DNA of 64,000 bases, taken from assembly GCA_037783415.1 (NCBI GenBank), contig JAZGTN010000038.1, forward strand, positions 1,178,001 through 1,242,000, given 5' to 3'. The stretch is from Leptasterias polaris (lineage: Eukaryota; Echinodermata; Asteroidea; Forcipulatida; Asteriidae). The notes under the pieces are model-generated. The model was not told the origin of the DNA, did not search any database, and was given only the letters and a program-made list of their open reading frames with translations. The position numbers were made by a program, and so were the translations under genes. Positions 43,948 to 64,000 of the stretch are shown piece after piece; positions within the stretch are counted from its first letter, which is position 1; each line of letters begins with the position of its first letter.

Positions 43948-44166
43948 CTACACGCTCGCTGTGGCTAGGGTTGAAGGCCCCGAGGTGTCAGCGGGGTTGT
44001 TGTGGGACTCTTGTTGATCGGAGCTCGTCTCGGTGAGGTAGCCTTTTTCCCTTGATGGGTTGCAACCGCACACCATTCCACACGACCAGAAACCGCACCC
44101 TTTACCGTTACCGGGTGGCGAAGAAGATGTGGAATTCTTTTTGATTTTGTGGATTTCGTCCTCAAG
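43948..44166 (-). CDS. Gene B last exon: coiled-coil end and C-terminal tail
   Basis: 72 codons plus stop at 43948-43950, acceptor [17 protein letters not shown] continues the heptads of the previous exon (Leu/Ile at 7-residue spacing). A Gly/Cys-rich segment with four cysteines (possible palmitoylation, inference) and a Ser/Thr-rich end follow. No RSRR-type retention signal is seen. Confidence 0.85.
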   Translation of the reverse strand, partial: LEDEIHKIKKNSTSSSPPGNGKGCGFWSCGMVCGCNPSREKGYLTETSSDQQESHNNPADTSGPSTLATASV

Positions 44167-47100
44167 CTGTGAGCAGGGAAATGAACAGAGAACAATTGGA
44201 AAAAGAAGAAAGGAGTTGAGCTTTGTTTTCAGGTCTTTCACCGAGTTTAGTTTTGAACTTTGACTCGTGGATTCATAATTTGATGGAATAATTGCTCGTG
44301 TAGGTTGACACAATTTTGGATTGGCACCCAAATCTGTCATTTATGGGTTGCTAGTTCAGAGAGTAGGACATTAAATGATACGGAACATTAAAGTACATTT
44401 AAAAAAAGACCTTTTAGGCCTAAAAGCGGCTGCTGGCATAAAAACCCTTCCAGATCAGAATTTACCCGAATTTGAGTCCCTTTGAGCCTGACCTATTTCG
44501 ACCTAAAATCTGTGCCAAAATGACCCAGTAGTGAATCTTAATCACGCAGAGTCAAGTTCAAATCCAATTTGTAACAACATTCCAGGGCCCAATTTCATAG
44601 AGCTGCTTAAGCAGAAAATATTGCTTAACGATTGTCTGCTAAGCAGAAATGAGCAGGATACCAGTCAAAAAGTGTACATGTGACAAGGTAGTTTGGCTCA
44701 GGTAACCTTATTCTGGCAAGCAAAATATTGTTGTGCTTAGCGACTTTTTGTGTTTAAGCAGCTCTATGAAATTGGGCTCAGGTCAGGCTGACCCGGAAAT
44801 GGTTTTGGCCCCATGGGACCAAGAATCCGGGTCAATTCTGACCCTGGAGTTTTTATAGTGTATTGCCTTGCAAAGATCTCTGCCAAGCGATGTATGGACA
44901 CCTTTGTAGTACCTTCACATGGCCTGACTACTTCATGGAGGCAAGGCCTAAATGTGACCATAAGCCGCACTTAAAGATGTAACCGTGGCTGGGCCGAAAT
45001 GTAGCCACAACAAAGTGCATAAGTGTAGCATTGGCCAAAATTTAGCCTCAATTTTGTACCTCAATGAGTACAGGCGCAAGCTCAGATATTATTTTATATG
45101 CTGGGCAACATTCAAGTACAGAGACATTACGTTCTCGGGCTACATTAATAGTTCCTGCGCAGACACCAGTCGCAACAATGGATTTGGCTATTCAATTGTT
45201 TCTGCTGTTTGTGTAAAAATTGTTCAAGAACTGGCCCTGGCCAAAACCCAGAACTCATCATTTTGCATTCGAGAACACTAAAATAAGTTTATATCGAAGC
45301 AAATATTACCGAGTGTTAGAATACGTTGTTTTGTTTGTAAATTTGGATAATTACACTCACGTCCTGAATGGTACTTTTAAGTTCTTTGTTCTCCTTGAGT
45401 AGATTTCCACCACCACCTGATGTCTCGCTAATATTATTGGTTCGACTCATGGTCTTGGGCTGGTTGGGGTCACCGTCTGGGTACTTTACTACTGCAATGA
45501 TCTGTTGGTCGATACATAAATCCAATATAGGGAGATGAAATCATAGCATTATAGTATTAATTTATAGTATATACAGCTCAAAATCAGTGTCCACATTTTG
45601 TGTGATTCAACATATGCATAAAACGTTTCTCTTCCAAGAACACTATCAGTCATAGCTCAAACATTGACTCCATCTACAACTTTCTTCTTAAAGCGCTTAG
45701 AGGCTGGCATGCAGTAGGCGCTATACAAATACGTTATATTATCATTATTATTATATGCATGAACAAACAAACCTGTGAAAGTTTGAGCTCAATTGGTCAT
45801 AGAGGTCACGAGAAATAGTGAAAAGAGACCATTATGTGTTTTCTGTTTTTCAAACATCGAGTTAATTATCACGCGTGATAAAAACTATTGTTTTACTCAT
45901 TTCTTAGAAACGATAGCATTTTAGGCAGAAATATTTTAAGGAACTCTTTCTACCATTACTTACTTTAAATCATGTAAGTTATGTGTGAATCTGTGAACAT
46001 TGTGTTTTTCGATCTTACCAATAGTGTACAGGGCATTTAAACATCAAAAATGGTTGGTGTACGTGCTGATGGGACTGTTCTTTTGTGTGCGTTTTGTTTT
46101 TGTGAGTTTTGTTATGTTTTTTGTTCCTTTGCTTGTCTTTCATCTATGGTCGCCTTCTCAGTTTGGAGAGGTATATCCCAGGCATTGCAAAGAGTGCTTC
46201 CATGCGAGTTGGTTGTCTTTATTGGGCTCGGAAGTGCTTGGCTCCTGATGCTACTCTGTAGTACCTTTACACCTGCTTTACAAGACTACTCTAGGTCCCC
46301 TAATGGAGTACCGTTGTCACATTTGAGATGGAGCTTCTGCCTGTCATTTATCCTTAAGAGATAAAGTGCAGGTCAGTGTATTGTTAATCTTGTTGGTGAT
46401 GGGTTGGGATCAGCGTTACAACCTCTTTCCCACCATCGGCCTTTAGCAAGCATCTGTCTTTTCTACATATATTTTCATAGTAAATGTGCCACCAGTGTGT
46501 CCGACCTGGTCCCTCCTATCAGGATGATTGGGAGTGAAACCAGGACTTTGGGCTTGTTCTCACCCAACACACTCTTGATTTGTTGAGATGTGGAACAAAG
46601 AGCCATTCCAACAGCTTTATTCCACGTACTGCATCTCTTTTAAATTCTTTGCCTGGTGCATGTTTCCCTCCGTCCTACAATATAGACAGAGGAATGTATA
46701 CTCATACATTCACCATTCCTGAGTTGTTCTTCTTGTAGCCCCTCACAAAGAGTGGCCTTTAGACTTGTCTCAGGCACAAACATTTATGTAAGAATCCGCA
46801 AACAATATCATTCTCGGTGATTAAGTTCATTCACTTGCCTTCGGGACAAACACCACCGTGAGTGTGATACTTGTACAGAAGAGAATGATGCACGACACGA
46901 ACAGGAATAGTGCTTCCGGGTTATTGTTGATGACGACACTGACTGCTACACCAATCAGACACAAGATGACGACGTTATAGACGCTGATGCCGATCAGCTT
47001 GCTGTCGTTCAAACCGGGAATTGTCACCTGGGGGAAGGTGATAACGTTTGGGTTTAATTTGGTAATAATCGTCGAAATTAAGATTGTCAGTTACCTGAGG

Positions 47101-50100
47101 GTGTTTTAGTCTTTTGTATTAACTTGGCACAATGCCAATATTGTCTAGAGAAAGTCTTGTATATAAAATAACAACATTCACTTTGTTATTAGCCTGCAAC
47201 ATTCACTTTGTTATTAGCCTGCAGCGTTTGATTGCAACTCCCCTGTGGTACGTTGTCAGCACTTGCTTCCAATTCTGTTTCATAGAATGATAGGGTTTGT
47301 TTCCTCTCTTTTTTCAGTTATATCTTTTTTTCAATTATATTTAAAAACTGCAGATATTTAAATGGGCACATGAAGTAGACACGTTTCAATATATTAGAAG
47401 TTAAAATGGTCCAACCTTGGGACTGTTGTTGAAAACTTTACTGTGGAAACCTTATTGTTATTCGACTTTTAAACCGATGCATACCTGTCGTGTTTCCCAA
47501 GCTAGGAATGTGCCGAATATCAAGAGCAGACCCTTGTAGCCATACAAAGCTCCAAGCCAAATGGTTAACGTGTCACATGAACAGAAGCGAATAAACGGCT
47601 GTATGTATTTATTCTCTGTTTCCGGATCTTCCTGTAACAGTTAGACATACAATAGACCTTATGACGTCAATTGAGTAGGGCGCCCTCGCCTAGAGGAAGA
47701 TGTTCTAAGATGGCGGCTTGGTGACGTCAATGCATAAGGTCTATAGGAAAGTGATGTACTCAAATTCATCAGAGGAAGAACGTAATATACTCTGAGGATT
47801 TTGCAGCGTTCATTTGAATAGATTGGGCCTTATTTGGTTTGATGCACACTGATGATTTTGGTACACACTGAAGGAGCTTGCAACGTTCATTATAATGGCT
47901 TGGGCCTTATTTGGTCTGGTATACACACAAAGGATGTTGCAGTGCTTAATGCATCGGGCCTTATTACACGCTAATTAGTGATGGTGGTGCTTCTAATATG
48001 TTCATTGTCTTTGAATTAAGACATTAAGTATGAGGTTTGGGTTACATTTAAATATGAGGTTGGGGCTTCGTGTAAGTATGATGTTGGGCCAACATTTGGG
48101 TATAAGTTTTAGGCTACAAAAGTCAGGGCTATAATTGGGGGACGCACAGACGTCTGTATGTCACATACAGATCAATATTTCTCTGCCTGGAATGGTGTAA
48201 GCTTTGGAACAGCGAAGCCGCGCCTACAACTCCCCACTCCCACAGCCTCTTGGAAAACTCTGGTGCTAACCGGTTTACTTAGGATAGGCCCATATGTAAA
48301 AAGTAACTTTTAGTCATCTGCTGGCGGGACAGACGTATCCCCATACTATGGTTTGGAGACTGGCGTAGTGACCAGTCTTTTTTTGTTCATCATTTGCTAT
48401 CATTTTGTGCATTTTAGAAAGTGGTTTTCATTTCTGATCATTTTTATGTAAGGGGCGCAGTATACTTTTCATTATTATTAGTACTTACCCGCCGAGGAAA
48501 TAAATCCAAAGTGGTCATTTTAAGTGGATCGATAAGTTGCCAAAGTGACAGAATAACAACATCAACGAGTAAGAGAAAAAAGACCATGATGAAAAGCTGA
48601 CTGTCTGTCACAATCTATTAGATGAAAAAAAGAAGAAAAAACTATTAAAATATCACACAATGAAAACTTCGTCTTGAAAATGGAGTGAAAAGCCACTTTT
48701 TTCATTGAAATTGTATCCCCCTTGTGCCCACCTAAAATGTTACCGGAGTTTCGGCACTGGAATAGGCAGGTGAAAAAACAGGGGGTTTTCTTCTTGAAAA
48801 GGCTTGTCATGGTTTCTCAAGGAAATCAGTAAAAAAGTATTACCCTTCGTTTCGGCGTCTTAAAGGCTGCTACTCGATGAATCCGCCACGTCTTACTAAA
48901 CAAAGCGCCGAACGCGAGCACAAAACCAACAGAGAGAATCCAGGTTTTCATCTGTAAAATAAGAAAATTAAGTTTATTTCGGATTAAAATGATGCGAGAA
49001 TACTGTTTTGTATTTATGACCTCATGGAACTTTGAACGATGACATAATTTAATCGAAAAGCTAACGAGCGTTTTCGCAGGAAATTTTCTTGTAGCATAAA
49101 ACGTGATCGTCAAAGGTTAATTACATACAATATTAATGTAGGGAGACGGGAAGGAGTCAGGCCCGTAGGGAGACGGGAAGGAGTCCGGCCCGTAGGGAGA
49201 CGGGAAGGAGTCCGGCACGTAGGGAGACGGGAAGGAGTCCGGCACGTAGGGAGACGGGAAGGAGTCCGGCACGTAGGGAGACGGGAAGGAGGCCGGCCCG
49301 TAGGGAGACGGGAAGGAGTCCGGCCCGTAGGGAGACGGGAAGGAGGCCGGCCCGTAGGGAAACGGGAAGGAGGCCGGCTCTCTAATTAAAAAGGACGAGC
49401 ATTCACCCAAAAATACCACAATATAAAATACACACGCTCACGTCTACAATAAAAAGTGATCTCATGCACTTAAACTGATTTTAATCCTCCTGCTTAGCAC
49501 ACAATGAAAATAGTACAACACAGTCAGTACCAAATTTTAAGAAGGGCACAAGGTCAACACGAGGCTGGCTACGTCACATACACGTTTACGATGCCCGATT
49601 CAGATAGCCCTTAAGATTACAATGATTCTCTTATCAAACGAAGAGTTAAATAAGAGAGAGCATTAGGATGTTATCCCTCCCAGATGATAAGTATAGACCC
49701 CTTGCATATGACATCACACGCTAAAAAAGCGCCCTCACTGAGGCCAAAAAGCGCCCTCACTGAGGTCAAAGGAGGCAGATGATTGGACGATAGGTGTTCT
49801 TTGTGCGTAAAATAGTGTGCGTGACCTCGGGGTCCATTTAGCGTTCCGCGTTTAATGCAAGGGGTCTATTAGGAGCATGGCCAGAGACATGCTCCCTACA
49901 CTAAATAGACAGAAATACCTACAGAAAATATATGTGCTGTCTACCCCTCAAAGCTAAAATGGAAAAAGAGAGCGAGTCCACAGGTCGCGATCCCAAAGTA
50001 AACTTTGTACAATATGTACACTGAGGGCGCACTTGGACTCCCTACATTAACTTTAGCAAAAACATTACACAAGTATAACTTTGTGAACCATACAAACTAA

Positions 50101-53100
50101 AGCACAAAGGTTTTCCTTAAGACTGTTTCTGTCATCATGCTGATTTCCCCTTTCCATTTGAAATTGTTGTAGACTGAAATCAACCTGGTCCCCTTGAATT
50201 GTTATTGTGTTTTCGGGGTACAAGTCAAAGATTGCTGCATTCACTTCCCTCTAACTAATATAGACTTCTCGCGTACGTCACATTTCTATAGCAACGCTAT
50301 CAAAAGCAGCGTGCCGTATCGACATGAGCGAACAGCGGGTGCTTGAGAAAAAATGGATACGAGTTTGGTAGGCGACATACGCGTAGGACTATAACAAGCG
50401 TTGCGTTTCGTAGCAAATTTTGTTTGTTTTAGGTTTTTTTGTTTATGTTGGTACGTATGTGTGACGTGTACGCTCACACATTCTTGTTAGAGTAGACGAG
50501 CGATAAAAATAATGACGTCATCTGAGAAATGCCTTTATTTTAGCCTGTCAAAAGAGTATACAGCAATCCTTCACCGATCTTGAACTCTTGGTGGCAGCAG
50601 ACATGCCTCCATTACTGCGGTGGTACCTGGGTGGTACTGCGCTGCCTAGCGACTGGTATAAGGTTTGGGCTACACGGCGATCATTTGATCAGTCACGGGT
50701 TATTGGACTTTTACTTTGCAAATCGCTTAAACCCGTCGCTAGGCAGAGCAGTACCACCCAGGTACCACTGCAATAATGGCGGTATCTGCTGCCACCAAGA
50801 GTTCAAGATCGGTGAAGGATTGCTGTATAGACCCACTTGCTCTTACGTCATGCACGGCTACTCTCAAAACTTATAGCTTGGGGATGCATGGCAAACCATG
50901 ATGGCACGAGTCTATGAATGGAAGTTCCTTAGAATGGTCATAGCACTACCAAAAGTTTCTCCATTACTGGAGCTAGAACTACCAATTAGGAATACTCTAT
51001 TCGGAACAACCAATCGACACTGCAAATTCGTGCATTTCAGAACCACCATGGGTTCCAATGGTAGTACAGTGTTACGTATAATATGCAGTGAGAGAGCTAG
51101 AGAGAAGCCTGTTATAAATATGTATGAAGTAGTCGACGTCAGCATACAAGATATTGCGCGGGATTGGCTGAGATCGGGTCCTGTGGCAATTTTCATGTAC
51201 GGAAAAAATTCGCTCTCAGCCCATGTCTGCCATTTTGGGAGCATGTAAAGATATTGCGTGTGCTTTTTACCGAGCACATGTTACTTATTATCATGTGCAG
51301 TGAGCTGTAAAAGCATTCAGTATAGCTGGACCAATAATTTGGAACAATCTTCCTCCTGTCATTAATAATGAACAAATAATGAAGGCGACGAAAGCAGAGA
51401 TTGAAGATTTTCTTACGTAACATAAGACGCCGAACGTGTCTTCAGAGACGAGGTTTGTGTCAAGTCCTGAAACGACAACGAACATATACACCAATATACC
51501 GCCAAGGATGATGAGGTTGTTCAGATTGGGGCTCGACATCTTCACGTGTCTGAAGAGAAATATCACATCAAACAATAAATAACAAATGGATATTAAAGAT
51601 CAATTTGAATGAATTGACATTATTGTTCCTTGTTAAAGAAAGGTGACCGAGTGTGTAATGATTACATAATTATTATTGAGTGAAACTTAATAAAATAGTT
51701 TCATTATGTACACCAAAACAAAAACCCACAATTGTATCAGTGTCATGCTGGGCACATTTGCCGAGTTTCACGAAAAGCCCCTCAGCGCCTCGGCATCAAA
51801 ACAGCTCTGTGATGTCACACAACAGACTCGATCCAAACAAGACAATGAAAAATGCATAGCAATGAAGATAAACAACCGCCATCCAGTCCGTGTTGTGTTG
51901 CATTTAACGGCACAACACGGACTGGTTTTACGCTGGTACTTCTGATGTACTGGTATTTCTGTTCGCACAGGACTTCAAATGGTCAAGTTGCCCTTGCTAT
52001 GTTAGTTTATTGGGGAAAAGTCCGATGCGAACACGGTCTTACCTCTGTTGACGGTATTTGACGTTAAAACCTAAGAAGAAGAGCGACAGAATAACACAGC
52101 ACGTGGTCACCCCACATATGCTGAAGTACAGAATAGGCGCCAGACCCTGGTACTCCCTTACTACAATCATCCTTATCTCCGGGGTTCTATCTAGAGGAGG
52201 ACCATCTCCTGTAAAATTGAAAAATGCAATTATTGTTAGAAATTGTTTTAAGTTGCGTGGGCCCAAGGGTTTAACTTGAAGAGACGACCCTTAGTGGCCT
52301 AATTAGTTAGTGTTTCAGTTTCCAGTGCAGAGGGTAGGGCATAGTATCGTAGTCACTGCGGATTTTTTTCCGTGCCCCGCAGATGCTAAAGGATTAACTT
52401 GACTTACCTGGCCAGACAATATCCTTCCGCCATTCCAGTGTGTCATCAACGGCACTATAAAGAGCAACTTGTTGTTCAAAAAACTCTGGAAGGTAAAGAT
52501 GGAAAATAAAGAAACATTAATTGACCGTTTTGGTTTTGTGTCTTGGGGTTGGGTTTTTTATTCAATATCTTAAAACATGTTTGCCTTTCATAATATATTA
52601 TGTTATAGCTCAGTTCGTGAAAACAAAAGAGTTCAGTAGCGCACTCGTTGTTATAAAAAATAATAAGGTAGATATAGTTCTAGTTTTACCTGCGAGGGTA
52701 CGACAAATGAATGGCAAACGTCTATTGCAATCTGCGGTTTGCCATTCACCGTCTTTAAGAAAATCCACGTAGGTGCAATGGATGCTGTCAGCCATATTGG
52801 TCGAACTATCAGAAGAAGACCGTAATGATGAGTTCGACTCGTCTCTGGTATTTATCCACCTATTAAGCGAGGGTACATAAAGATATAATGTTCAACTAGG
52901 GTTTTTCCTTCTAAACACCCCCGGCTCAGAATCGACCCAGTTCCGGGTCAGAATTGACCCAGTCCCGGAACAGAATTGAGCCAATCCCGGCTCAGAATCG
53001 ACCCAATCTTGGGTCAGATTTGACCCAGTCCCTGGTCAGAATTGAGCCAATCCCGGCTCAGAATCGACCCAGTACAGGGTCAGAATTGACCCAGTCCCGG

Positions 53101-56100
53101 GTCAGAATTGACCCAGTCCCGGGTCAGAATTGACCCAGTCCCGGAACAAAATTTAGCAAATACCGGCTCAGAATCGACCCAGTCCTAGCTCAGAATCGAA
53201 CAAGCCCCGGGTCAGAATCGACCCAGTCCCGGGTCAGAATCGACCCAGTCCCGGGTCAGAATTTACCCAGACCCGGGACCCGTATAGGGCCTCATCCATA
53301 TTGGGGTCAGTATGGCCTGGAAGCTACGTCGAAATTACCCAGAAATTTGTAAAATTGATGCAGAATTTTTCCCACCCTTTCTTGGAGTCCCAAAATGGCG
53401 GAAATGATGGACACGCATTGAGTGGGGTGCGTTGTGCGTTTTGCGTCGTGCATGTGGGCCAATAGCGCTCAGTGTAGGCGATGAAGCGCGTTTACACGCC
53501 CAACAAGTCTTACCATGCAACTTGACTCACTGTGGGCAGACAGTGGCCGCGTGTGACGTCAATCAAAAAATTCATTGGTGTTTGTTTCTCACAAAAACGT
53601 CCACAAAAAAGAATAATTCCCAGCAGAGCTAATTTGTTGGTTGTGTACGTACCATTGTGCCGGAAGGTTACCAGAGTTGTTCATCCATGTTTCAAGGAGG
53701 AACTGCAGCTCATTATCGCCGTCAATATAGGCTAAGAAGGCCCCTGGGTACGAGGAAGCACAGCTCGATTTAGCTTCTTCAACAGGGACCGAAGGATCAG
53801 ACACGAACCGAAAACACGATGACCGATAATTGTGCCATCCTTCCTCGCACGTACCTTGAAAGCAACAAAGACAAAACATGTGAAAAGGTAGAACTTGTTT
53901 TGCACAACATCGACTTTGGCTTTCCCATGGCAGTTAATTGTCTCGCACGTTTCAAGGTTTCATGTGTACACCATTTCCATAACAAAGCTTTCCAGTGCAA
54001 AATGACAACAACAAAATTACGGAACAGTCGCTTTTAGACTAAATAATATTACATAGCTTTAGATTGTTGAAGACGGACATCATGAAAAGTTAACGCCAAA
54101 GGGCTCAGCATTTAATGTGCAAAATGTGTTTCAAGACGATGCGTGTGAACGTTTGATTGGTTTCCTGTTATGTATAAGTCATTTTGGGAAGTTTTTTTTT
54201 CTGCATATAACTTGTTTGTCCGAGCAAATTTATTGCTTACGGCCTTTTGTTACGGGGAAACTAAAGAACACTTTGTGTGCTTCGAAGAAGAGCTTGGGCC
54301 CTAGGCCCTTCATCTAGGTACAAGACGAAATAATGATTTCAAGCTCTCTCATGTTCAAACCATACACACCGTCGAAAAACTGCTATACATAGCTCAACGA
54401 GATGAAAGAAAAAAAACATTCAATTGCGACCTCATCATAAGACTTTAAGCAAGTTATTCCAAAAATAATTGGTAACAACTGTGTACGGAGTTCCATTCCA
54501 CTTATCCACATAAATCATCATCATCATCATCATCATCATGCTCTGTATCCATCATGGGACGTAGAGCCACCCAACCAATGCGATTTGATGCGGATTGCCA
54601 CAGCTGCCGTGCCTGAGACTCGAAGTCTGCTTCCAGCTGACACACCCAGGTGTTACGATGTCGGCCTCTTGGTCTCTTCCAGGCTGGGCTGGGGCGGGAT
54701 CCTCCCCGCACGTCGACGCTCAACTTGAGGGCAACATTGGCAGGCGTATCCTCTGGGAGCCGTCTGACATGGCCAAAGAGGGAGTGGCGTCTCCGGGAAA
54801 TAGTCACGCGGATGTCCTCAATGCCGGTGGTCTCCGAGATTGTTGCATTAGTGATGAAATCGGACCACCGGACGCCAAGAATGCGTCGTTGACACCTGAG
54901 GTTGAAGGCTTGGAGCCTCCGTGTGTCGTCAGCTCGGAGTGTCCATGTTTCTGGACCATAGAGTAGGACAGGGAGGACGCACGTTGTAAATATCCTCAGC
55001 TTGGTTGCGAGCTTGAGGCGTCTGTTCCTCCAGACACGATCTAGTTGGCCGAAGGTGGATGAAGCAAGCCCAAGACGTCGAAGAATGTCGGGGGAGGAGT
55101 AGCCTGAGGAATGGTTGTCGCAGCCGAGGTACCTGAACTTCTGTGTGATTTCGACAGATTTACCCTCAACGGTGACTGAGGCGGGTGTTGGGCCAAGGCT
55201 GGTACAGTTCTGTATCTTGGTTTTGGCCCATGATGTATGCATCCCCATCGTCCCAGCTTCTTCCTCGAATCTTTGGAGTGAGACAGGCCACTGGGTGGGC
55301 TCTCCTAGGAACAGTACGGCATCGTCAGCATATTAAATGGATATATTTTAATCTCGTGACAAGTCATTAACTGGATAAGAATAGTGTCATGCTTTATGCT
55401 CCGTAGTTTTCTAATTAAAACATTATCTTACCTTGTAACTGTTCAATTTGTGTAATACCTACTCGATCGCTGCCCTTAAAGCCTACAGGTCCCTGTTGCA
55501 AATAAACAAAATTACTATATCAGGAAACAAACTTGTTAAGTCTAAAAACAAAAAGACAGAATTGAACCTGGGTCAAAATGACACAGAATGGCCAAACTGA
55601 CGCAGAATCCAATTTAAAACCCTTGTTTTGTTCGGTTCAGACTGACCAACAAATGGGTCAACCCCTGGGACCCGGAATCCGGGTCAACTCTGACCTGGGC
55701 CCAATTTCATAGAGCTGCTTAAGCAGAAAATATTGCTTAACAGTTGTCTGCTAAGCAGAAATGCGCAGGATACCAGTCAACAATTGTACATGTGACATGG
55801 TAGTTTAACTGGTAACCTTATTCTGGTAAGCGAAATGTTGCTTAGCTACTTTTTGTGCTTAAGCAGCTCTATGAAATTGGCGGCTGGTTCTGAAAACAAA
55901 AATTATTTGCTTTCAAAACTGTAACAACCCCGGGGTCAGAATTGACTCAGTTCCGTCACCCAGGGGCCTGACCCATTTCTGTTTCAGTGTGACCCGGAAT
56001 ATGTTTGAAAAAGATCTAGAAATGGGTCGAACTGACGCTGAATTTGTGGCTAGTACGAAACGTACAGTTGACGATCGTTGACGTCCTTTATATTATGAAT

Positions 56101-59100
56101 CTTCTGAGCGTCCATGTCTTCACAAAATGAAACTAAGTCCATTATAGAGGGCGCTGTTCATTATGTGTGTTGGTCTTTTGTATATTAGTTTTGGGGCCTT
56201 TTGGGGTATCTGTTTATGTAATTGCCGTTTGTCCTTAAGATATTCTTTTTCGATCCTTTATATATTTTCGGTGGTCTTTTAAGTATTGGATCCTTACATA
56301 TCGCCCCATGGTTTAATCCAAATGTTTTTGCCATGGCTTTGCCCATGTATGGTTTTGCTCCTGTATGGTTTTGCTCCAATATGTATGGTTTTGCTTTTAT
56401 ATAATTACATGGGTTCGCCCTTATGGTTTTGCCTTAAAATGTATGGTTTTGCTCTTTGGTTTTGCTTTTGAATATATATGGGTTTAGTTTAACACATGTA
56501 TACAATTTTGGAGACAGAAATTGCAATTGTCGTCATAACATACAACGTTAACAGCAATTACTTAATTTGTTAACCTAAAGGAGCACTGTGTAACAAAATA
56601 TAAGTTTTAAAACATGCAAAGCAAAAATCTCGTGAAATTTACATTTAGGTATGGAATTGAGGCTGTTAAGGTCCCTTTAACTATAGCCCCCTTTAATGTC
56701 ATGGAAAATCAGTCACTGGTGCCCGTTACAAAAACAAAAATTTCAAATCGCCGCAAATTGTTTTCCCCCGAAATTTTCGTGGTGGTCAAAACTTTGATAG
56801 AAAATTTGCCCTTTATGTAAGTTTTGTAATGGTGCATAATGTTAACCGGTTTCTTGAGAAGTAAACTAGTCATTTCACCCTAGACAACTGCAAAATTGCC
56901 AAACGAGGGTCGAGTTTAAAAGGGCTGCACTGATGTGCTCTTCTCTTATCGCCACCATCAGTGCAACCATAAGGACGCTTGAACGACATGGCTAGTTTTT
57001 GTCCTCGAATACTCACAGAGACCCCGGGAAACTCCGTCTCGTTTAGAAGCGTGAAGAACAAGTCCGCCATCTCACGGTCATCGTAGGTAAAATCTTCTAG
57101 ACTCTTCATGCTTCCGTCAGAAAACCTTTTGCGGACAGAAACAAGCAAAATGCTCTTGATAAGCCTTTAAAGTTGGACACACCTTTGACGATGTAATTGT
57201 AGAAAGGGTAAGAACGGGAACCTTGCAAAGGTTAGGCTATAATTGACTTGTAGCCCCAACGTAATAAGAAAAAACATGCGCAAGTCTAAACCGATACGTC
57301 TTGCAATTTACGCAAGCTACGCCAAATCTTCCACAAAATGTCATTGGATACAAAATGTCATTAATAATTCTATTTGAAGACAAAGTGTGGAAAATACAGT
57401 ATTTGTTCAGAAGCATCCCTTTGAAAATATTGTGCCCTAATTTCGGCGCTACATGAAATGTCTTCTTGAATAACGTATACTAATGAAGACGTCTACATTA
57501 TTGCTCGTTGAGCCTTAATTAACATGAGGTCTGACTCAATTCCTGATTATACAACGTGTCTATTGAAAAATATCCTGATCGAGATGAACACCTAATTGTC
57601 TTTTTTCATTACTAATCCGTACATTCTTCAGAGACCATGCTGGGTCTTGCCTTTTTCCGAGCAACGTGGCAAAACCCTTGAATTATGGTGCAATTAGGGC
57701 AGCAAGGTTTCAAAACGTATTATAAATAATACACAGGTTCAGTGTTATTCAGCATGTTCATAATCAGTCGCGAACAAAGCATTTATTATTTGGGGAAAAG
57801 CATTTTTCAGGCAGTTCTTCAATATTGTTGTTTATTTTCGATTTGTACTTGGGTTTTTTAGTTTGTTTTTGTTTTACTTTTTTATTCAACTGTTGTCATC
57901 TTTCTTATTACTTTTTTTCAAGGGTTGAGGTAGGGATTGGGGGAAGGCTCCTGTGCAGGGGCTCCCACCAAGTCAACTCCCCTTGCTGGGCCAAATGTCA
58001 TAGAGCTACTTAGGCAGAAAATATTGCTTACCAACGTTTTGCTGGGCAGAAATTAGCATGATACCAGTCACAAAATAAACATGTCTTGGTAGTTTAGCTG
58101 TTAACCTTTTCCTAGTAAGCACATTTTTGTTGCGCTTACCTACCACTTGTGCTAAAACTAAATTGGCAACGCCACTGTTCGTATCGACCTTCTTGTGTGA
58201 GTGTGAGTGTGAGTGATTGATATTAAAAACAACAGCTCCTTATGATTTCAATTATTCGGCCTGCCGAGCAATTCCAGTCAAAGGTGATTGTTGGGTTGTT
58301 GTTTTTTTTCAATCCAAGAGATTGAAGCATTTATCTTTCAAATTATTTAATATTACTGTCACCCTCTTCACATCAAAGCACAGAGAAAGCCTCACCGACA
58401 AACTTCACATTCAGGTAAAAATGAAAAAAAATAAACATAAGATCATCAATGCCAATATTTTATATTTAAAAAACCCTCTCTTTTTCCCCTTTTTCAGCAA
58501 AAGTATTTACCCAATCTAAAGACAGTTCAAGGTTTCTTTCACCACAGGGTATATCAAAAAAGCGATAGAAGCAGTATGACGTCCCAAGAAAAATGGGAGA
58601 AATGACAAAATAACAACAGTCGTCTTAAATGATGCAGTTTTTAATTTGGGTTGAGGAAATGTTATTTAACTTTTAACCCAATGCCAGTGTATGAATGAGC
58701 AGTCCCTATAAACTATCGAGTACTTGCAGCCTTTTGTACCAGCAAGCTGCGGGAAATTTATAGACCTTTTTATTGCAACGTCACGGCCCGAGTTTTTCCT
58801 ATGGGAAGCCCCCAATGCAAAGCAAAGATGGATAGCCACAGTTTGAAACAATGTGACACAAATATTCAAAAACTGTGTTGAATTTGTTGGGAAAAAAGCA
58901 ACCAATCATGAGATGGTTTGTTTTTTATGATTCGAAGTATTGCTAACATTCGTCCTTCCATTTAAACTAGGGCGGTTTGTTATATATCAACAGTTGTTAA
59001 GGTTTTCAGCCCATTTGCAATGCCGCCATGTTTGATGTCAAACAATGAGAACGTACATTCAGTGGGTTTACAATAGTTTGACTACAAAAATGGCGCCATG

Positions 59101-60824
59101 TGGGCAGAATGTAACCGCCTGTGACGTCAGCGCAAGGGGTCTTGCAGACAGCGATTTGATCATCAATCGTCTGCTCCAATCTGCTTTGAATTCTCCTGTT
59201 TAATGACGGGGGTTCTTTTGGTTGTCCGTTTTTAGCACACCGTTCTCAATGGAAGTCAGCATTCCACAAAGCTTACTCTAATCATCAATATATTATAGAA
59301 CCCCCCAAAACGGGAAAAGAACGGTACCTTTTTGTCTTTAAAACACCAACAGCTTTGTCCAGAGCAAGAGCGATGGCCCACGTGGCATCGTAACCATATG
59401 GGGCCAGACTGTTCCATACGTAGCCTCGGTTCTCCGGTTGTTTCATACGCTCTCGAAGCAGAGATTCATACTCGCCAGGCGTCTGGTTGTTATTGTAAGA
59501 GAGAAAAATATTTGTGTTCAATTCAATACAACTGACAACATACGTTTCCCCGCAGTTTTATTGAAAAGCATACAGTCAAACTTTAGTCACAGCTTAGATT
59601 AGTAAAGGGGGGAAAATGAGAATACAGAAAACTATGACGGGTATAAATGCTAGCTTAAAGTGGTAAGTTTCACCGGGTAGCAAGGAATTTCATGCGATTG
59701 TGTGTAACTTTTTGTAATTTTTAAGTATAAAACGTACATATCGCCGCAGCATGATAATTAGTAAGCATTACTCGTACACGTTTAGCTTGTAGGGACAATT
59801 CTAATTAGTGAAAAGGAAGGAGTTTTTCAGCGCTTGGCAGTGGCTTGCGCGCGCTTGCAGTAACTGGAGTGAGTTTATGTACAGAAAACAAAAACTTGCT
59901 TTGACCATGACAGTGTCCCTTTAAGTAATTGGTTTCAATGAAGTATTCTCACTATGCCTGCAATTGTAGGCTCCGGTGACGTACTCAGCTGAAGACTCTC
60001 CGTTGCGAAATACTGAACGCCCGCTACGGCAAGCTGCATCTCATCCAATGTGCAGCTGACCTTGGAGTCTTTCTCTTTCCACCACTTCGGCTGGTACCAG
60101 CCGATGATCATCCAAACGTAGTCAGGTCCCGTGAGCTTCTGTTTGTAGGCCTATTATTAGAGTAGATAGGGGAACTAGGATTGTAGATTAGAAAAAGTTT
60201 CAGTAAAATTACATTGACTGAAAGTTGTTCCAAATTCCCGGTTCCTTATTGCTGTACCTTTACTCATGAACAGGTAACCAGCTTAAAATGACAAGAAACC
60301 TTGCCATGCAAAAGTGAAACCTGTTGGTACTTTTATAAGTTTTGTACAACGTGTTATTTCCCAGATTGCCAAATTCCCGGTTCACCATTGCTGTACCCTT
60401 ACTCCTGAATAAGTAACCAGCTACAAATGACAAAAACATTGGCTGACAACTGTTTGGTATTACAACTGAACAGTGAAACCTGCCGGTAGAGTTGTACAAG
60501 ATGTAACTTTCTAATTCGTATTTTTATCAGGTCTAAAAAGAAAAAAAACGTCATCCCTCTTTAAACCATTGATGTAGAACAACATAGCACCATCGGAGTC
60601 ATAGGATTCTATGGTTGTATTTGACACGACATATTGCATATACAAACAACGACATCTGAAGAACAAACCTAATTACACAACATTCTCACCGGAACCGGGG
60701 CACACGCAGAAAGAGTATTTAATTTGATCGTGGAAAGGACGGCATAACGCTTGCTTACCTCGCAGAACACTCGTCTTGCCTTGTCCTCATACATGTTACT
60801 GATGATAATCTTAGCGTCTTGGCT
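43948..60824 (-). CDS. Gene B: GABA-B receptor subunit 2-like with inserted C-type lectin domain
   Basis: Sixteen exons join in matching phase without a stop and encode 755 residues; the 5' exons (about 256 residues by gene A) lie beyond the right edge. Order within this part: flytrap lobe 2 (1-197), CTLD (198-320), juxtamembrane (321-367), seven helices (about 368-632), coiled coil (about 668-696), tail with four close cysteines ([12 protein letters not shown]) to 755. Helices read like GABBR2 ([44 protein letters not shown]). The receptor should couple extracellular ligand sensing to G proteins at the plasma membrane, probably as a dimer through the coiled coil. The CTLD lies between IEQLQG and [19 protein letters not shown], in the final strand region of the flytrap. 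One donor (exon 46839-47027) is GC. Confidence 0.92.
44439..44862. mobile_element. GGGTCA foldback MITE with another MITE nested in it
   Basis: Ends ATAAAAACCCTTCCAG and its near-complement CTGGAGTTTTTAT. The interior has repeated GGGTCA/TGACCC words. 44586-44777 is a nested MITE with GGGCCCAATTTCATAGAGC ends and an inner GCTGCTTAAGC stem. Relatives of the outer element: 7050-7190, 27535-27670, 55560-56060. Confidence 0.7.
45361..45501 (-). CDS. Gene B exon: cytoplasmic tail and start of coiled coil
   Basis: 47 codons, acceptor CAACAG, donor GTGAGT. It contains [17 protein letters not shown] then [15 protein letters not shown], parallel to the STNNN...LLEKENRELEKII region of vertebrate GABBR1. 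Confidence 0.87.
45750..46041. mobile_element. Partial MITE, TTAAAGGCCCTG family
   Basis: Reverse-orientation relative of 37256-37627 ('acaaacctgtgaaagttt', 'cgtgataaaaactattg', 'accaatagtgtacaggg'). Confidence 0.6.
46360..46690 (+). pseudogene. LINE ORF2 C-terminal fragment with frame change
   Basis: Plus-strand pieces [20 protein letters not shown] and [13 protein letters not shown] in one frame, then [20 protein letters not shown] and [14 protein letters not shown] in another, match the end of L2/CR1-type LINE proteins. It lies in a gene B intron, antisense. Confidence 0.78.
46839..47027 (-). CDS. Gene B exon: transmembrane helices 6 and 7
   Basis: 63 codons, acceptor [26 protein letters not shown] begins TM6 and [20 protein letters not shown] is TM7. 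The reading frame ends at AAG followed by GCAAGTG, a GC donor that joins in phase 0 to exon 45361-45501. Confidence 0.93.
47485..47631 (-). CDS. Gene B exon: second extracellular loop and helix 5
   Basis: 49 codons. [19 protein letters not shown] and [15 protein letters not shown] match GABBR2 TM5. A loop Cys probably pairs with the Cys before TM3 (exon 51417-51549). Confidence 0.93.
47652..47744. mobile_element. 93-bp MITE with two TGACGTCA sites
   Basis: ATAGACCTTATGACGTCA at one end and TGACGTCAATGCATAAGGTCTAT at the other. It ends 20 nt upstream of the gene B exon 47485-47631 acceptor. Confidence 0.7.
48489..48614 (-). CDS. Gene B exon: transmembrane helix 4
   Basis: 42 codons, acceptor AATAG, donor [26 protein letters not shown] then LIDPLK: the D-x5-WQ-x-DPL pattern is diagnostic of GABA-B receptors. 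Confidence 0.93.
48844..48951 (-). CDS. Gene B exon: transmembrane helix 3
   Basis: 36 codons, acceptor TTACAG, donor [26 protein letters not shown] then TWRIHRV matches the TM3 and second intracellular loop of GABBR2. Confidence 0.93.
49139..49380. repeat. 27-bp minisatellite, 9 copies
   Basis: Unit GTAGGGAGACGGGAAGGAGT plus CCGGCCC or CCGGCAC. It stays open on the minus strand as SFPSPYGPD repeats because 27 is divisible by three. It lies in the TM2-TM3 intron of gene B. Confidence 0.95.
49693..49870. mobile_element. MITE with ATAGACCCCTTGCAT ends
   Basis: TATAGACCCCTTGCAT at the left and ATGCAAGGGGTCTATT at the right, about 178 bp, with an internal 'agcgccctcactgagg' duplication. Confidence 0.65.
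50557..50830. mobile_element. Foldback element with arms of about 95 bp
   Basis: 50558-50653 and 50735-50829 are near-perfect complements (TATACAGCAATCCTTCACC ... GGTGAAGGATTGCTGTATA; inner GCTGCCTAGCGAC/GTCGCTAGGCAG) around an 80-bp loop. It lies in the same gene B intron as the 27-bp array. Confidence 0.85.
51304..51414 (+). pseudogene. Short LINE C-terminal scrap
   Basis: Translates to [20 protein letters not shown] followed by a Lys/Glu-rich end, the 'AFSVAGP-WNSLP' terminus of LINE ORF2. It stops at the splice donor of the antisense gene B exon. Confidence 0.6.
51417..51549 (-). CDS. Gene B exon: first intracellular loop and helix 2
   Basis: Acceptor CTTCAG, donor GTAAGA, phase 2 in and 0 out. 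[20 protein letters not shown] then [19 protein letters not shown] follows GABBR2 closely. Confidence 0.93.
52043..52208 (-). CDS. Gene B exon: juxtamembrane stalk and helix 1
   Basis: Phase 1 in, 2 out. [19 protein letters not shown] is the stalk (compare the PP-DRT/PPKDKT of GABA-B receptors). [20 protein letters not shown] begins TM1. Confidence 0.93.
52408..52485 (-). CDS. Gene B exon: last flytrap strand after the lectin domain
   Basis: Phase 1 in and 1 out. [20 protein letters not shown] matches the GEYNAVADTLE segment of GABBR2, so receptor sequence resumes directly after the CTLD. Confidence 0.92.
52690..52859 (-). CDS. Gene B exon: C-type lectin domain, second half
   Basis: Phase 2 in, 1 out. 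It starts [11 protein letters not shown] and ends with [26 protein letters not shown]. Three cysteines occupy the C2, C3 and C4 positions of a CTLD. EPN/QPD and WND calcium-site motifs are absent and the long loop is a Ser-rich stretch, so sugar binding through calcium is unlikely. The acceptor TTAATAG was chosen because it gives W-W in frame with the previous exon. Confidence 0.88.
52905..53290. repeat. 22-bp array of GGGTCAGAATTGACCC-type units
   Basis: About sixteen diverged copies of a 22-bp unit (CGGGTCAGAATTGACCCAGTCC). It starts with 'aacacccccggctcagaatcgaccc', like the ends of the GGGTCA MITE. It lies in the intron that splits the CTLD. Confidence 0.85.
53653..53854 (-). CDS. Gene B exon: C-type lectin domain, first half
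   Basis: Phase 1 in, 2 out, acceptor [23 protein letters not shown] gives the N-terminal hairpin cysteines of the long-form [24 protein letters not shown] and [12 protein letters not shown] follow, as in helix 1 to helix 2 of CTLDs. Confidence 0.92.
54502..55335 (-). pseudogene. 5'-truncated RTE-like non-LTR retrotransposon
   Basis: Translation starts inside the reverse transcriptase catalytic motif ([11 protein letters not shown] at about 55333) and continues about 270 residues: [45 protein letters not shown] and GRHRNTW. The 3' end carries a (GAT)n tail at 54540-54513, typical of RTE-type elements. It lies in a gene B intron, same strand. Confidence 0.88.
55432..55492 (-). CDS. Gene B exon: flytrap lobe 1-2 strand before the lectin insert
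   Basis: Phase 0 in, 1 out. [20 protein letters not shown] matches G-VVF...R-G...I-QLQ of GABA-B receptors. It is short and absent from simple open-frame lists, but forced by phase and homology. Confidence 0.9.
55560..56060. mobile_element. GGGTCA MITE remnants with nested 185-bp MITE
   Basis: GGGTCA/TGACCC-rich segments at 55560-55697 and 55920-56060. 55698-55882 is the GGGCCCAATTTCATAGAGC element also found nested at 44586-44777 and alone at about 57988-58165 and 61231-61420. Confidence 0.65.
57017..57125 (-). CDS. Gene B exon: flytrap segment
   Basis: Phase 2 in, 0 out; donor GTGAGT chosen over an upstream GT because it leaves EFPGVS joined to GPVGF, as in SSFEGVSGHVVF of GABBR1. It contains [20 protein letters not shown]. 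Confidence 0.9.
57988..58165. mobile_element. CCCAATTTCATAGAGC-family MITE
   Basis: Diverged copy ('tgtcatagagctacttaggcagaaaatattgctta') of the nested elements at 44586-44777 and 55698-55882. Confidence 0.6.
58170..59327. other. Intronic stretch of gene B, no gene seen
   Basis: Only a (GAGTGT)n-like run near 58197-58214 and a possible ATAGACC-type end near 58762 are notable. Confidence 0.4.
59328..59482 (-). CDS. Gene B exon: flytrap segment
   Basis: Acceptor ACCAG, phase 2 out at [25 protein letters not shown] and [19 protein letters not shown]: the YDA-WA-ALAL-K helix is a GABA-B hallmark. The pocket Glu of GABBR1 (before AP-AYDA) is not conserved. Confidence 0.93.
59953..60150 (-). CDS. 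Gene B exon: flytrap segment with GW-WW motif
   Basis: 66 codons, acceptor AATAG, donor GTGAGA placed by comparison with gene A exon 802-1002 (both end AGI). It reads [20 protein letters not shown], close to the GWYEPSWW of GABBR2, then [13 protein letters not shown]. Confidence 0.9.
60759..60824 (-). CDS. Gene B first exon in the window: flytrap segment
   Basis: 22 codons, acceptor ATCTAG, donor GTAAGC, phase 0 both sides, same length as gene A exon 1345-1410. Upstream exons were not found between 60825 and 64000. Confidence 0.9.
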
Positions 60825-62741
60825 CTAGATAAGGAAAAATGGCCGAATGGTTCGTAAATAACTTGCCATGAAATATTAGTTCGTTGTACAGTTTTGTAAA
60901 TTGGTGTTTTACTGATGTCTTTATTTCACTTTTGAGGCACTGTATAATAAGGTATCATTGTATAAGTTAGATTTGAGGGCATTGTATGGTGAGGTATCAA
61001 ATACACAATGTATATTCAGTTTTCGGAAACACCATGTGAAAAGCAGTTATACAAATTGTTTCACCACAAACTAAATAATTATACACTATTATGTGTTTAA
61101 AACCCAAAACATGCCATTCGAGAAGTTGCTCTTTTATTAGTACAGATCAGCTTAATTTTTTTTTGATTTGATTCAGTTTACTTAATAACATGATATGTTT
61201 GCAGTGATGTTGTAGAACGGTTGAATCAAAGCCCAATTTTGTAAAGCTGCTTAAGCACGAAATATTGCTTAACATTTTTCTGCTAAGTGAAAGTGAGCCG
61301 CATACCAGTCAAAAGTGGTACATGTGACATGGTATTCGGGCTGGTAAATATATTCTGGTAAGCATAGTTATGTTGTGCTTTAGCTACCTTTTGTGCTCCA
61401 GCAGCTTCATGAAATTGGGCACAGAGCTTTCTGATGCTTATGACTGATTCGTTTCGACCCACAGGATCCGCTCTTTTTGCTGACAGTTACTCTGTTCACT
61501 GCCTTTAAGGAAAAACACGAGTGACGGCCCATAAGGTGTCAGTGTTTCCCACGCACCAGAACCTCGCTTTTCCATATGGTGATTTTTTAACCCTGTGTGA
61601 TGCCATGGCTCACTTATTGAGTAACAGTTTTTATTTAACAAGTCAGTAATCCGCCATTTTATGTTTTTGTTATATCTAAAACTCATATTCACTAACTAAA
61701 CCTAGCCAAATAGCATGCCAACTGTCTTGTTACCATCGGGGTTGTTTTTCACACACACAAAAATACACCAAGGACCTGCTCTCCCGATTTTCCCATAGGA
61801 ATTGTAAAGCAGTTACTTAGCCTTGGACCTAATTACCACTAATAGGTGAAATAAACCATTTTGTATAGACTATAAATAGAGACAGATATGGGCTAATTTC
61901 AAAGGAAATTGTTTTGGCTATAATTTATTTTATTTAGTCACAAGGGCCTATATCTAATGGTTTTGGCGATTTAAAAGTGAATATGTTCTCCCCAAAATCG
62001 TATTACACGGAAATATCAACCTGTCACTAAAAAGTGCGCGATGGTGTAACTGTGTGATTTTTTTTGATGCTGTCACCGAGTGTTTTAAGTTAAAGAATTA
62101 AGATGAAATTTAGAAGTTAGTTGACGAATTTGCTCCCTCGTCCCGTCCAACTTGTATTACCATTATGCGTCTATAGTTAGTTCCATTGCTCAAACAACTG
62201 ATTTCAAGCCCTTCTGGCGAGCATTTCAACCCAAGTGGACGGAGAGCACGCTCTCTCTGATGACTCGCCTCTTTCACGTTGACGTTGTGTCTATTTATAC
62301 TGTGTCAATATTTCGTGCAGACATTTTCTTGTATTTGCAGAGTGTCCTGTCGTTGTGGAAACTGGGGTGCATATATGACTACTCCACTCTTGAAACATGT
62401 ATAAGAACATACCCCGGGACATCTTTACCCGTCCATACAGACCGAATTATTTGCTTTTTAAAACGAAGACGGCAGTTCAGAACGTTAAAAGCCCACTCCA
62501 GTCATTATTGATTTTTTTTTTTTTATTCAACCCCAAATTATTCAAATTTACACAGTCAGTTTCCTTTGTGGTTTACAAACTTGATTTTTGATAGAAAAAC
62601 AATCGCATCCCCTATTAAAGGTTATCACTGGCTGCCGCTTCGCCCGTTGTATCGTAAACGTGGGGGTGTGATCCCTGGCTACACGGCAGCTATTAACGGT
62701 TGTATGACTTCTGACTGACGCCCCAAGCAAAATGATTGACT
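60825..62741. other. Gene B intron, no exon recognised; one MITE
   Basis: 61231-61420 is another CCCAATTT...GCTGCTTAAGC MITE. Open frames here lack family features. I looked on the minus strand for the expected 34-codon flytrap exon and did not find it. Confidence 0.4.
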
Positions 62742-62840
62742 ACTGGGCTAGATAAATAGCTCAGTTGGTAGAGCGCCGGCACGATAAACCAGAGGTCGTT
62801 GGTTCAAATCCCGCTCTAGTAATTGTTTCTTTGTTCAACC
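62742..62840 (+). mobile_element. tRNA-derived SINE head
   Basis: Box A TAGCTCAGTTGGTAGAGCG and box B GGTTCAAATCC are intact, but acceptor and anticodon stems mismatch and the anticodon loop lacks the usual T. This fits a SINE rather than a working tRNA. 'ttgtttctttgttcaaccc' follows. Confidence 0.6.
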
Positions 62841-62851
62841 CAAAACTTTAA

Positions 62852-63876
62852 TATAGGTTTTCTCGGTCAATTTCGGCAAATGAGCAGCCGATTTCATTTT
62901 CGTGCGTTCGAATTAAAGCTATTTTGCCTCTCCAGTTGTTACTGCGTTTCAAATTCAAAATTCGGGCATTCAATTTCGTATTGAGGCATTCAAATTCCTT
63001 TTGCACTGTGTTCAATTTAGCATATCGTCATTCTTTTTCGTGACGCACAATCATCATTCAATTTAGCAAAGCTGGTTCGACTGGAGATTTTACTGGTTTA
63101 TTTTTTTTCAATTTCGTAAAGAGGCAATCAATTTCGCTAAATGAGAATTCAAATAAGTACGACTAAAGAAATACGAATAAACAGATAATCTGTATTAGGC
63201 AACTGTTTCGTATCTTCACTTTAATTCAGGCAAACCTTATTTTCTTTATTTATGGTTCCAGGAGACTTTACATGGGGCCCATGATGTTTTTTCTTCTTTG
63301 TTTTCTCCTATATTCTTTTTTGGGGGATCTTTATTGGTTAACTGGCCTAATTTTGTATTGTGTTTGAATGGGGTGTTTCTTTATGTTTTTTCTGGTTTTT
63401 GTTGTTTATGTTGTTTCTTCCTCAACCATCAATCTATTGGCGTGCCAGACATCTTGGCGTATATGTTTAGGTATGGTTGTACCACAAGCTGCAAACTTAT
63501 TGAAATATGCGTGTAAAACTGTAGCAAAAGCTCGTCTTCGAAGTACAAAGTGACTCAAGTGCAAATAAGTGAACCGTATATGCCTTATTAACAAAGCGTT
63601 TTTTAGATTGCACAAATTACAGAAATGACTGCCCAAAAATGAATTTGAATGACTAAACACACGCCTCAAAAAGCTCCGGCGAATTTGAATGCTGCTTTGA
63701 TGAATCGTTAAATTGAATGATTATTTTGTTAAATCGAATGACGCAACAGTACATTTGACTAGTCATAAAACGAAATCGAATTACCCTTTTCAGTAGCATT
63801 CGATTTCACGCGAAATAGAATAGCGTGGTGGTTAAATTGGCTGCTCATTTGCCGAAATTGACCGAGAAAACCTATA
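62852..63876. mobile_element. 1.0-kb non-autonomous DNA element with 38-bp inverted ends
   Basis: 62852-62889 (TATAGGTTTTCTCGGTCAAT...) and 63839-63876 are exact complements over about 38 bp. The outermost TA on each side may be the target duplication, as in Tc1/mariner-type MITEs. The interior is filled with variants of CATTCAATTTCG and CAAATGAGCATTC. No coding frame is recognised. It begins just after the SINE at 62742. Confidence 0.85.
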
Positions 63877-64000
63877 ATAATAATATTGGGAATTTATAAT
63901 GCGATGGTATCTGTCTTTGAAATGTTCATGGCGCAACGACATATATCAATAGAGGGGAATGTTTATGCAGTCCTCATTAGGTGAGCCTTGAGGGAAGTTT

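Follow-up and report, generated by a model that had tools for sequence, protein, structure and literature searches.

A region of the Leptasterias polaris genome, lying in a stretch of 64,000 nucleotides (hereafter the window), is predicted to be part of one starfish gene encoding a GABA-B-like receptor of class C, with a complete long-form C-type-lectin-like domain (CTLD) in its flytrap. That flytrap and CTLD form one fused receptor protein is, from the sequence comparisons below, nearly certain. Judged from predicted proteins of relatives, the insertion extends beyond this genome to a subfamily represented in 12 named ambulacrarian species.

The minus-strand model of 15 exons is open for 683 aa, and profile matches give the domain order ANF_receptor (E 1.9e-13), Lectin_C, 7tm_3 (E 2.1e-54). 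Its exons and a probable last coding exon are listed here; the evidence is splice borders, frame and tblastn with the starfish relative P0001, unless given otherwise in brackets.

60759..60824, minus strand, receptor exon A (flytrap), phase 0-0
59953..60150, minus strand, receptor exon B (flytrap), phase 0-0
59328..59482, minus strand, receptor exon C (flytrap), phase 0-2
57017..57125, minus strand, receptor exon D (flytrap), phase 2-0
55432..55492, minus strand, receptor exon E, ending in IEQLQ plus one base, phase 0-1 (splice borders, frame, human GABBR1/2 alignment)
53653..53854, minus strand, CTLD exon 1, phase 1-2 (splice borders, frame, Lectin_C match, tblastn with P0001)
52690..52859, minus strand, CTLD exon 2, phase 2-1 (splice borders, frame, Lectin_C match, tblastn with P0001)
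52408..52485, minus strand, receptor exon F, where the flytrap strand resumes, phase 1-1 (splice borders, frame, human GABBR1/2 alignment)
52043..52208, minus strand, receptor exon G (stalk and TM1), phase 1-2 (borders, frame, human alignment, tblastn with P0001)
51417..51549, minus strand, receptor exon H (7TM), phase 2-0
48844..48951, minus strand, receptor exon I (7TM)
48489..48614, minus strand, receptor exon J (7TM)
47485..47631, minus strand, receptor exon K (7TM)
46839..47027, minus strand, receptor exon L (7TM), followed by a GC donor
45361..45501, minus strand, receptor exon M (tail; predicted helix in a relative) (borders, frame, tblastn with P0001, structure prediction)
43948..44166, minus strand, probable last coding exon with stop codon and a tail with a cysteine motif (tblastn with P0001 residues 987-1058; frame open to the stop)

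For the cysteine motif of the tail, a crude pattern found 12 of 28, but it passed over variants that can be seen in starfish. An intronic ORF remnant of mobile-element type (54502-55248) adjoins the CTLD exons. Rfam and tRNA scans of the 64-kb window gave no matches.

An earlier note on this DNA had proposed that the CTLD is set between receptor exons by a symmetric phase 1-1 cassette. The junctions bear this out: the four exons from E to F lie where the note had placed them and have AG acceptors and GT donors with phases 0 to 1, 1 to 2, 2 to 1 and 1 to 1, and the cassette consists of the exons 53854-53653 and 52859-52690. The joined frame of the four exons is open, with many stops in both other frames. 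The note had further held the interrupted receptor sequence to be contiguous in human GABBR1/2, and indeed, without the two CTLD exons, the alignment to human GABBR1 and GABBR2 is free of gaps across the join, gaps occurring only further downstream. The CTLD opens a short flytrap turn, no receptor sequence is deleted, and the fused and the exon-skipped forms are both in frame. Symmetric intron phases flanking a domain, a mark of exon shuffling, are 1-1 here; shuffling would be their natural reading, the phases being known from the window only.

The domain itself matches Lectin_C with 35.5 bits (E 1.8e-8) when taken alone and with 30.6 bits within the 683-aa model, the curated cut-off being 22.6 bits. 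Six cysteines were counted in it, in agreement with the complete six-cysteine CTLD claimed before; Lectin_C similarity combined with six cysteines identifies the long form. Six cysteines are present in 32 of the 34 inserts that we compared, the first being insert residue 3 in 34/34 and the second residue 14, 15 or 21. The CTLDs are much diverged between members (median identity 25%), and such fast sequence change might equally reflect weak constraint. No more than 19 of 24 members have a Lectin_C match at E 0.01, and P0001 scores 19.4 bits, below the curated cut-off; a profile built from 14 inserts recognises the other 12 that were tested. With the window CTLD, the Asterias amurensis protein shares 91 of 114 residues (80%). 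The matches listed by Foldseek and VIA were flytrap and 7TM matches.

The canonical motifs of calcium-dependent sugar binding are a long-loop EPN or QPD, together with a WND that precedes the fifth cysteine. Neither is found in the window CTLD. WND before the fifth cysteine occurs in 0 of 34 inserts (P0035 has five cysteines, and another one may have been taken for the fifth), and an EPN string in two of them (P0020 and P0044), by eye near the long loop only in P0044. A reading as a canonical calcium-dependent sugar-binding lectin was marked down on account of these missing motifs. As the motifs are missing, lectin activity is not implied, and "lectin" is here, as far as motifs tell, a fold name only.

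A protein with flytrap, Lectin_C and 7tm_3 in this order, for which the earlier note had proposed to search, is present in echinoderms and hemichordates, and the interruption of a GABA-B-type receptor by a CTLD recurs at the same site in 33 database proteins from 12 species. Among 159 aligned rows, an insert of 97-151 aa is located at exactly this site in 34 (the window and the 33 proteins, all ambulacrarian); 116 are without insert and have 0-3 residues there (once 8), three are partial at the site, and six do not cover it. The carriers belong to other starfish, brittle stars, sea urchins, sea cucumbers and acorn worms, and are called "GABA-B receptor subunit 1/2-like" or uncharacterized in the databases; all relatives are predicted proteins, so that shared annotation habits could matter. 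Both ANF_receptor and 7tm_3 were detected in 24/24 relatives. The Asterias amurensis protein is 87% identical to the fused model over 100% of the model's length, an agreement far beyond chance, and the insert is present in the proteins listed for each of the starfish relatives P0001-P0004 (cluster representatives). Some brittle-star proteins stand inside the carrier group without the insert, and in these the CTLD is therefore dispensable. A search with P0007 residues 385-585 (CTLD and flanks) yielded nine proteins, seven already-known CTLD receptors plus P0163 and P0060, two receptors that have no insert. As this search does not extend past close relatives, it tests the absence of the insert outside the Ambulacraria weakly. 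Two of the three protein searches reach mainly close relatives, and the limits of the distribution are thus weakly probed.

In a 45-row tree all carriers fall into a single group (100/100), within which a brittle star shows two apparent losses, and the group has 98 SH-aLRT in a 66-row tree; the root was not inferred in these trees. The group is separate from the GABBR1, GABBR2 and GABBR3-like rows of the sample, and is placed within neither the GABBR1 nor the GABBR2 clade. The sole crinoid row (P0156), a very long branch beside the group with weak support (79), does not cover the insert site. The insert label needs three changes on the trees, a kind of count that cannot separate gain from loss. 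We regard a single ancient origin of the insert as highly probable: one ancestral exon-shuffling event would have preceded the split of echinoderms and hemichordates, with later loss in some brittle-star copies.

The order of a 7tm_3 domain preceded by an ANF_receptor flytrap is that of class C GPCRs. An excerpt of PMC7411975 describes the GABA-B-like branch of this class as having a short linker that lacks the cysteine-rich domain found in other receptors of the class. The window model agrees with this branch: no NCD3G match was listed for it or its relatives, and the translation has no cysteine between the CTLD and the TM1 stretch of exon G. The GABA-site positions were placed by motif, using what we take to be the GABBR1 numbering. 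Among carriers that have a residue at the respective position, His170 is conserved in 0 of 29, Glu349 in 1 of 33 (Asp in three) and Ser153 in 9 of 29, compared with 9/9 for each in nine GABBR1 rows; the full residue set of GABBR1 is not found in the carriers. Since His170 and Glu349 are nearly always replaced, GABA is doubtful as the carriers' ligand. "GABA-B" is, as the sequences suggest, the name of a fold family here and does not imply GABA binding, because the carriers are placed outside the GABBR1, GABBR2 and GABBR3-like rows and are without the GABA-site residues. In the predicted structure the flytrap stays GABBR1-like and the CTLD sits between two strands; the last flytrap hairpin presumably belongs to lobe 2, by analogy with mGluRs.

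Compared with GABBR1, in which the His170/Glu349 set is complete, the carriers have these residues nearly always replaced, are placed apart on the tree and have the CTLD nested in the flytrap. Their 7TM is closer to GABBR2, P0001 showing 47-51% identity to six GABBR2 rows versus 38-41% to four GABBR1 rows. In the flytrap, however, identity to GABBR2 is only 34-38%, most ligand residues that are retained in the carriers are lacking from the GABBR2 rows, and no CTLD is present in the GABBR2 rows examined. To our knowledge, the accessory modules of GABA-B receptors all sit at the chain end. The sushi domains of GABBR1a, which according to an excerpt of PMC6430795 bind protein partners, resemble the CTLD in that they add an extracellular module to a GABA-B receptor, but are N-terminal and of a different fold, whereas the CTLD is nested in the flytrap. 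The P0007 CTLD matches those of DEC-205 (lymphocyte antigen 75; E 8.7e-21), PLA2R (3.5e-15) and aggrecan (1.5e-10), which are other protein classes; the carriers differ in lacking WND (34/34). A table in PMC8687355 gives Lectin_C with 7tm_2 in "GPRX", and Sushi and ANF_receptor as the extra domains of GABA_B. Such class B receptors likewise combine a 7TM with a CTLD, but belong to another receptor class and are without a flytrap. The word "lectin" occurs in one table of that paper and 0 times in PMC7042368 and PMC10603993, and among the titles and abstract openings of the open-access matches listed, no description of a CTLD in a GABA-B receptor was found.

Taken as a whole, we consider likely the explanation of a CTLD-bearing flytrap receptor of ancient origin, with a ligand other than GABA and the CTLD as a partner-binding side module. 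The flytrap would close on a small ligand partly held by the GABBR1-type positions Trp65, Ser130, Tyr250 and Trp278, but, given the replacement of His170 and Glu349, would not bind GABA in its usual manner, and the 7TM, in sequence closer to GABBR2 than to GABBR1, would couple to a G protein. The CTLD, on the last flytrap hairpin (putatively lobe 2), would be a side module for a partner, most likely a protein bound without the usual calcium site, and may thereby place the receptor or bias lobe movement. The partner-binding role taken by itself is a reasonable possibility that falls somewhat short of even. We tentatively put forward a wider proposal, according to which these would be ambulacrarian orphan receptors of class C in which each chain takes two extracellular inputs: a flytrap for a small non-GABA ligand, and a fast-evolving CTLD in the moving lobe, whose task would be to recognise a protein or surface partner and to gate the receptor or target it. 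They would derive from a single exon-shuffling origin before echinoderms and hemichordates diverged, and have multiplied thereafter.

It is hardly conceivable that the CTLD exons represent a separate or nested gene, or stray intronic exons. The adjoining mobile-element-type remnant (54502-55248) implies that insertions do occur here, but phases and borders fit, the match of the Asterias amurensis protein extends over the entire fused model, which argues against a separate gene, and this reading was ruled out by the recurrence of the fusion in other species (33 database proteins, 12 species, same site). The exons could also be an optional cassette, skipped in most transcripts, with the fused form as a minor or tissue-specific isoform. 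Both forms are in frame, the skipped one is gap-free against GABBR1/2, and brittle-star relatives manage without the insert; yet the proteins listed for starfish P0001-P0004 contain it, and six cysteines kept in 32/34 inserts mean that the exons are constrained in some product, and we hold this reading to be unlikely.

Insertion at the same turn more than once, in separate lineages, is quite improbable. It could account for the three label changes, in which gain and loss are not separable, and for the low median CTLD identity of 25%, but carriers and brittle-star non-carriers share one side of the 100/100 branch, the site is the same throughout, the first two cysteines keep their places (residue 3 in 34/34; residue 14, 15 or 21), and the 14-insert profile recognises the other 12 tested. 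The CTLD might finally be a weakly constrained passenger that folds without specific function, as its fast change, the losses in a brittle star and the missing sugar and calcium motifs would allow. Decay would be expected of a passenger, whereas CTLD and cysteines are kept across echinoderm classes and hemichordates, which leaves this reading on the unlikely side.

With carriers among starfish, brittle stars, sea urchins, sea cucumbers and also acorn worms, the fused design looks old and shared. A whole CTLD nested in a ligand-binding domain and kept in two phyla shows that one turn of the flytrap can accommodate a large insertion, and is a case of recombination between a signalling receptor and a recognition fold. 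The starfish carriers and brittle-star non-carriers are natural pairs with and without the CTLD, which may provide a handle on ligand choice, dimer packing and trafficking. Database entries named "GABA-B receptor subunit 1/2-like" thus conceal a family that is distinct and, in all probability, non-GABA.

All four exons of the minus-strand receptor gene from which the lectin cassette had been proposed are bordered by AG and GT, and when joined they are open in one frame, the remaining two frames not being open:

55432-55492, minus strand, receptor exon E, borders ACAG/GGACCT...TACAAG/GTAA
53653-53854, minus strand, exon 1 of the C-type-lectin-like domain (CTLD), borders CAAG/GTACGT...ACAATG/GTAC
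52690-52859, minus strand, CTLD exon 2, borders ATAG/GTGGAT...TCGCAG/GTAA
52408-52485, minus strand, receptor exon F, borders CCAG/AGTTTT...GGCCAG/GTAA

Both outer borders of the CTLD fall after the first base of a codon, which makes its two exons together a phase 1-1 cassette, as the earlier note had stated. Its claim that the CTLD interrupts contiguous receptor sequence was likewise borne out, as omission of the CTLD gave a gap-free alignment across the join with human GABBR1 and GABBR2. Judged from sequence, the insertion opened a short turn and removed no receptor sequence; conservation is the argument that the CTLD exons would be in use.

Lengthening of the gene model in both directions from open segments and splice borders gave 15 exons from 60824 to 45361 (minus strand, 683 aa), with three Pfam domains:

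model residues 3-197, ANF_receptor
model residues 220-317, Lectin_C
model residues 374-636, 7tm_3

The sole GC donor is that of exon L (46839-47027, 7TM part), with an apparent GC-AG intron (AAG/GCAAGT) at 46838. A probable last exon at 44166-43948 was located by comparison with the Asterias amurensis relative, P0001. The gene probably starts outside the window, since the first 312 residues of P0001 had no match above 26 bits in 60824-64000. The tail encoded at 43948-44166 carries a 13-residue motif, a possible lipid-attachment site, with similar motifs in the tails of many CTLD receptors (alignment A1); of 28 tails, 12 fitted a crude pattern for it.

The window contains the following further features:

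36004-2, minus strand (as the CTLD gene), second GABA-B-like gene, exons near 36004-35648, 7385-7239, 6333-6136, 2711-2610, 1407-1345, 1005-802 and 88-2
8986-15356, minus strand, Ty3/gypsy-like retroelement within a 28-kb intron of the second gene
54502-55248, minus strand, intronic open frame (exon E to CTLD exon 1), sole Pfam match DUF6451 (28.2 bits)
52920-53277, 22-bp tandem array, about 16 copies, in the intron splitting the CTLD
2803-3075, similar 33-bp array, 50 kb distant
39525-39996, repeat, seven 67-bp units, 99% identity
49138-49378, repeat, 27-bp unit, about nine copies, 96% identity
30104-32579, plus strand, overlapping open frames

The second gene is closest to the CTLD-bearing proteins P0021 and P0019 of A. 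rubens and P0017 of Patiria, and leaves the window short of its own CTLD site. Of the three open frames of the retroelement, one corresponds to integrase and one to reverse transcriptase with RNase H; the frame in Gag position has a match to the PNMA family (E 1.2e-33). By eye, the 54502-55248 frame resembles the final part of a LINE-type reverse transcriptase protein; units related to the 22-bp and 33-bp arrays also occur in the intron that precedes exon E. The plus-strand frames are probably mobile-element-like: 31668-32579 matches DUF7869 (28.7 bits against 26), and for 30104-30778 no match was found.

Matches listed in a database search with the model include P0001 at 87% identity and P0002-P0004, from Acanthaster and Patiria, at 66-68%. 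P0001 is itself fused and spans 100% of the model, and the reading that the CTLD exons belong to a separate gene was thus not borne out. Our site survey comprised 159 aligned rows, i.e. the window model and 158 of 162 proteins. An insert of 97-151 aa lies at exactly the CTLD site in 34 rows (the carriers); three have a partial insert, 116 have at most 8 residues there, and six do not cover the site. Six cysteines are present in 32 of the 34 inserts, seven in one and five in one. Among the matches listed, the 33 database carriers come from at least 12 species, echinoderms or hemichordates throughout: Asterias amurensis, A. rubens, Acanthaster planci, Patiria miniata, Amphiura filiformis, Lytechinus variegatus, Diadema antillarum, Holothuria leucospilota, Apostichopus japonicus, Saccoglossus kowalevskii, Ptychodera flava and Glandiceps talaboti. 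No chordate, protostome or cnidarian row of the alignment has the insert, the match lists behind it being capped (the best 120 of 469 in the search with the model) and favouring close relatives. On this comparison the fusion is not a one-genome accident.

Of 24 members scanned for Lectin_C, 19 reach E 0.01; P0001 scores under the curated cut-off. A profile built from 14 inserts gave 32.7 to 87.3 bits on 12 others, the window and weak members among them, versus a maximum of 12.5 on 2400 shuffled inserts. Since these scores lie above shuffled sequence and all six cysteines are invariant in 24/24 aligned members, the weak members tested are diverged CTLDs.

In unrooted trees built without the CTLD columns (a quick one of 66 rows, a careful one of 45), the carriers form one group (98 SH-aLRT and 100/100, respectively), separate from GABBR1, GABBR2 and coral receptors in both and from GABBR3-like rows, which only the 66-row tree includes. 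Nested in this group, on two branches, are Amphiura proteins lacking the insert (seven rows in the larger tree, six in the smaller). The carrier label requires three changes, a count blind to gain versus loss; because the insertion site is shared, one gain and two losses would be the simplest reading. The brittle-star non-carriers are A. filiformis P0026-P0030, P0033, P0034, P0040 and P0043 (plus P0058, P0143 and P0154); several list a contig of the same size (67502775), a hint of a single tandem cluster.

The sequences themselves are not new, as carrier proteins are already in public databases, named GABA-B or uncharacterized, and for some of them Lectin_C is precomputed. Searches of an open-access library listed no description of the combination; what appears to be new is the nesting of a CTLD within the flytrap of a class C receptor.

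Ligand residues were located in the rows by motif, and each count covers the rows that have a residue there. Of the GABA-site residues described, Trp65, Ser130, Ser153, His170 and Glu349 belong to lobe 1, and lobe 2 provides Tyr250 and Trp278 (PMC7411975, PMC6429233, PMC7997371). In carriers we found Trp65 in 23/26, Ser130 in 26/27, Ser153 in 9/29, His170 in 0/29 and Glu349 in 1/33 (Asp in three), with Tyr250 in 32/33 and Trp278 in 33/33. Nine GABBR1-looking arthropod and tardigrade rows have Trp65 in 7/7 and each of the other six in 9/9. Ordinary GABA binding by carriers is doubtful, because Glu349, which in a docking result from PMC6429233 forms a salt bridge to the agonist amine, is nearly always replaced; the retained Trp65, Ser130, Tyr250 and Trp278 positions suggest that a small ligand may still be bound. 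A simple tie between the CTLD and these losses is disfavoured, since His170 is also missing from seven CTLD-free receptors of corals, worms and hemichordates (0/7; Glu349 7/7) and Amphiura non-carriers have mostly lost Glu349 (kept in 2/9).

The flytrap of P0001 is 38-44% identical to GABBR1 (four rows) and 34-38% to GABBR2 (six rows), whereas its 7TM part is closer to GABBR2 (47-51%, six rows) than to GABBR1 (38-41%, four rows). Such mixed likeness would allow binding and signalling by a single chain.

Neither EPN/QPD nor WND motifs are present in the window CTLD. Over 403 pairs, median identity is 25% for the CTLD, 49% for the flytrap and 54% for the 7TM part, the CTLD being lower than the flytrap in 399 pairs and lower than the 7TM part in all 403. 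Fixed cysteines combined with a fast surface would suit a CTLD that recognises a changing partner; the plain alternative is that this fast change reflects weak constraint. A precedent for a partner-binding extra module on a GABA-B receptor is the sushi domain of GABBR1a, which, as summarized in PMC6430795, binds APP, AJAP-1 and PIANP, loss of APP impairing axonal receptor expression; a statement in a later paper holds that receptor activity is not regulated by soluble APP peptide (PMC9917443).
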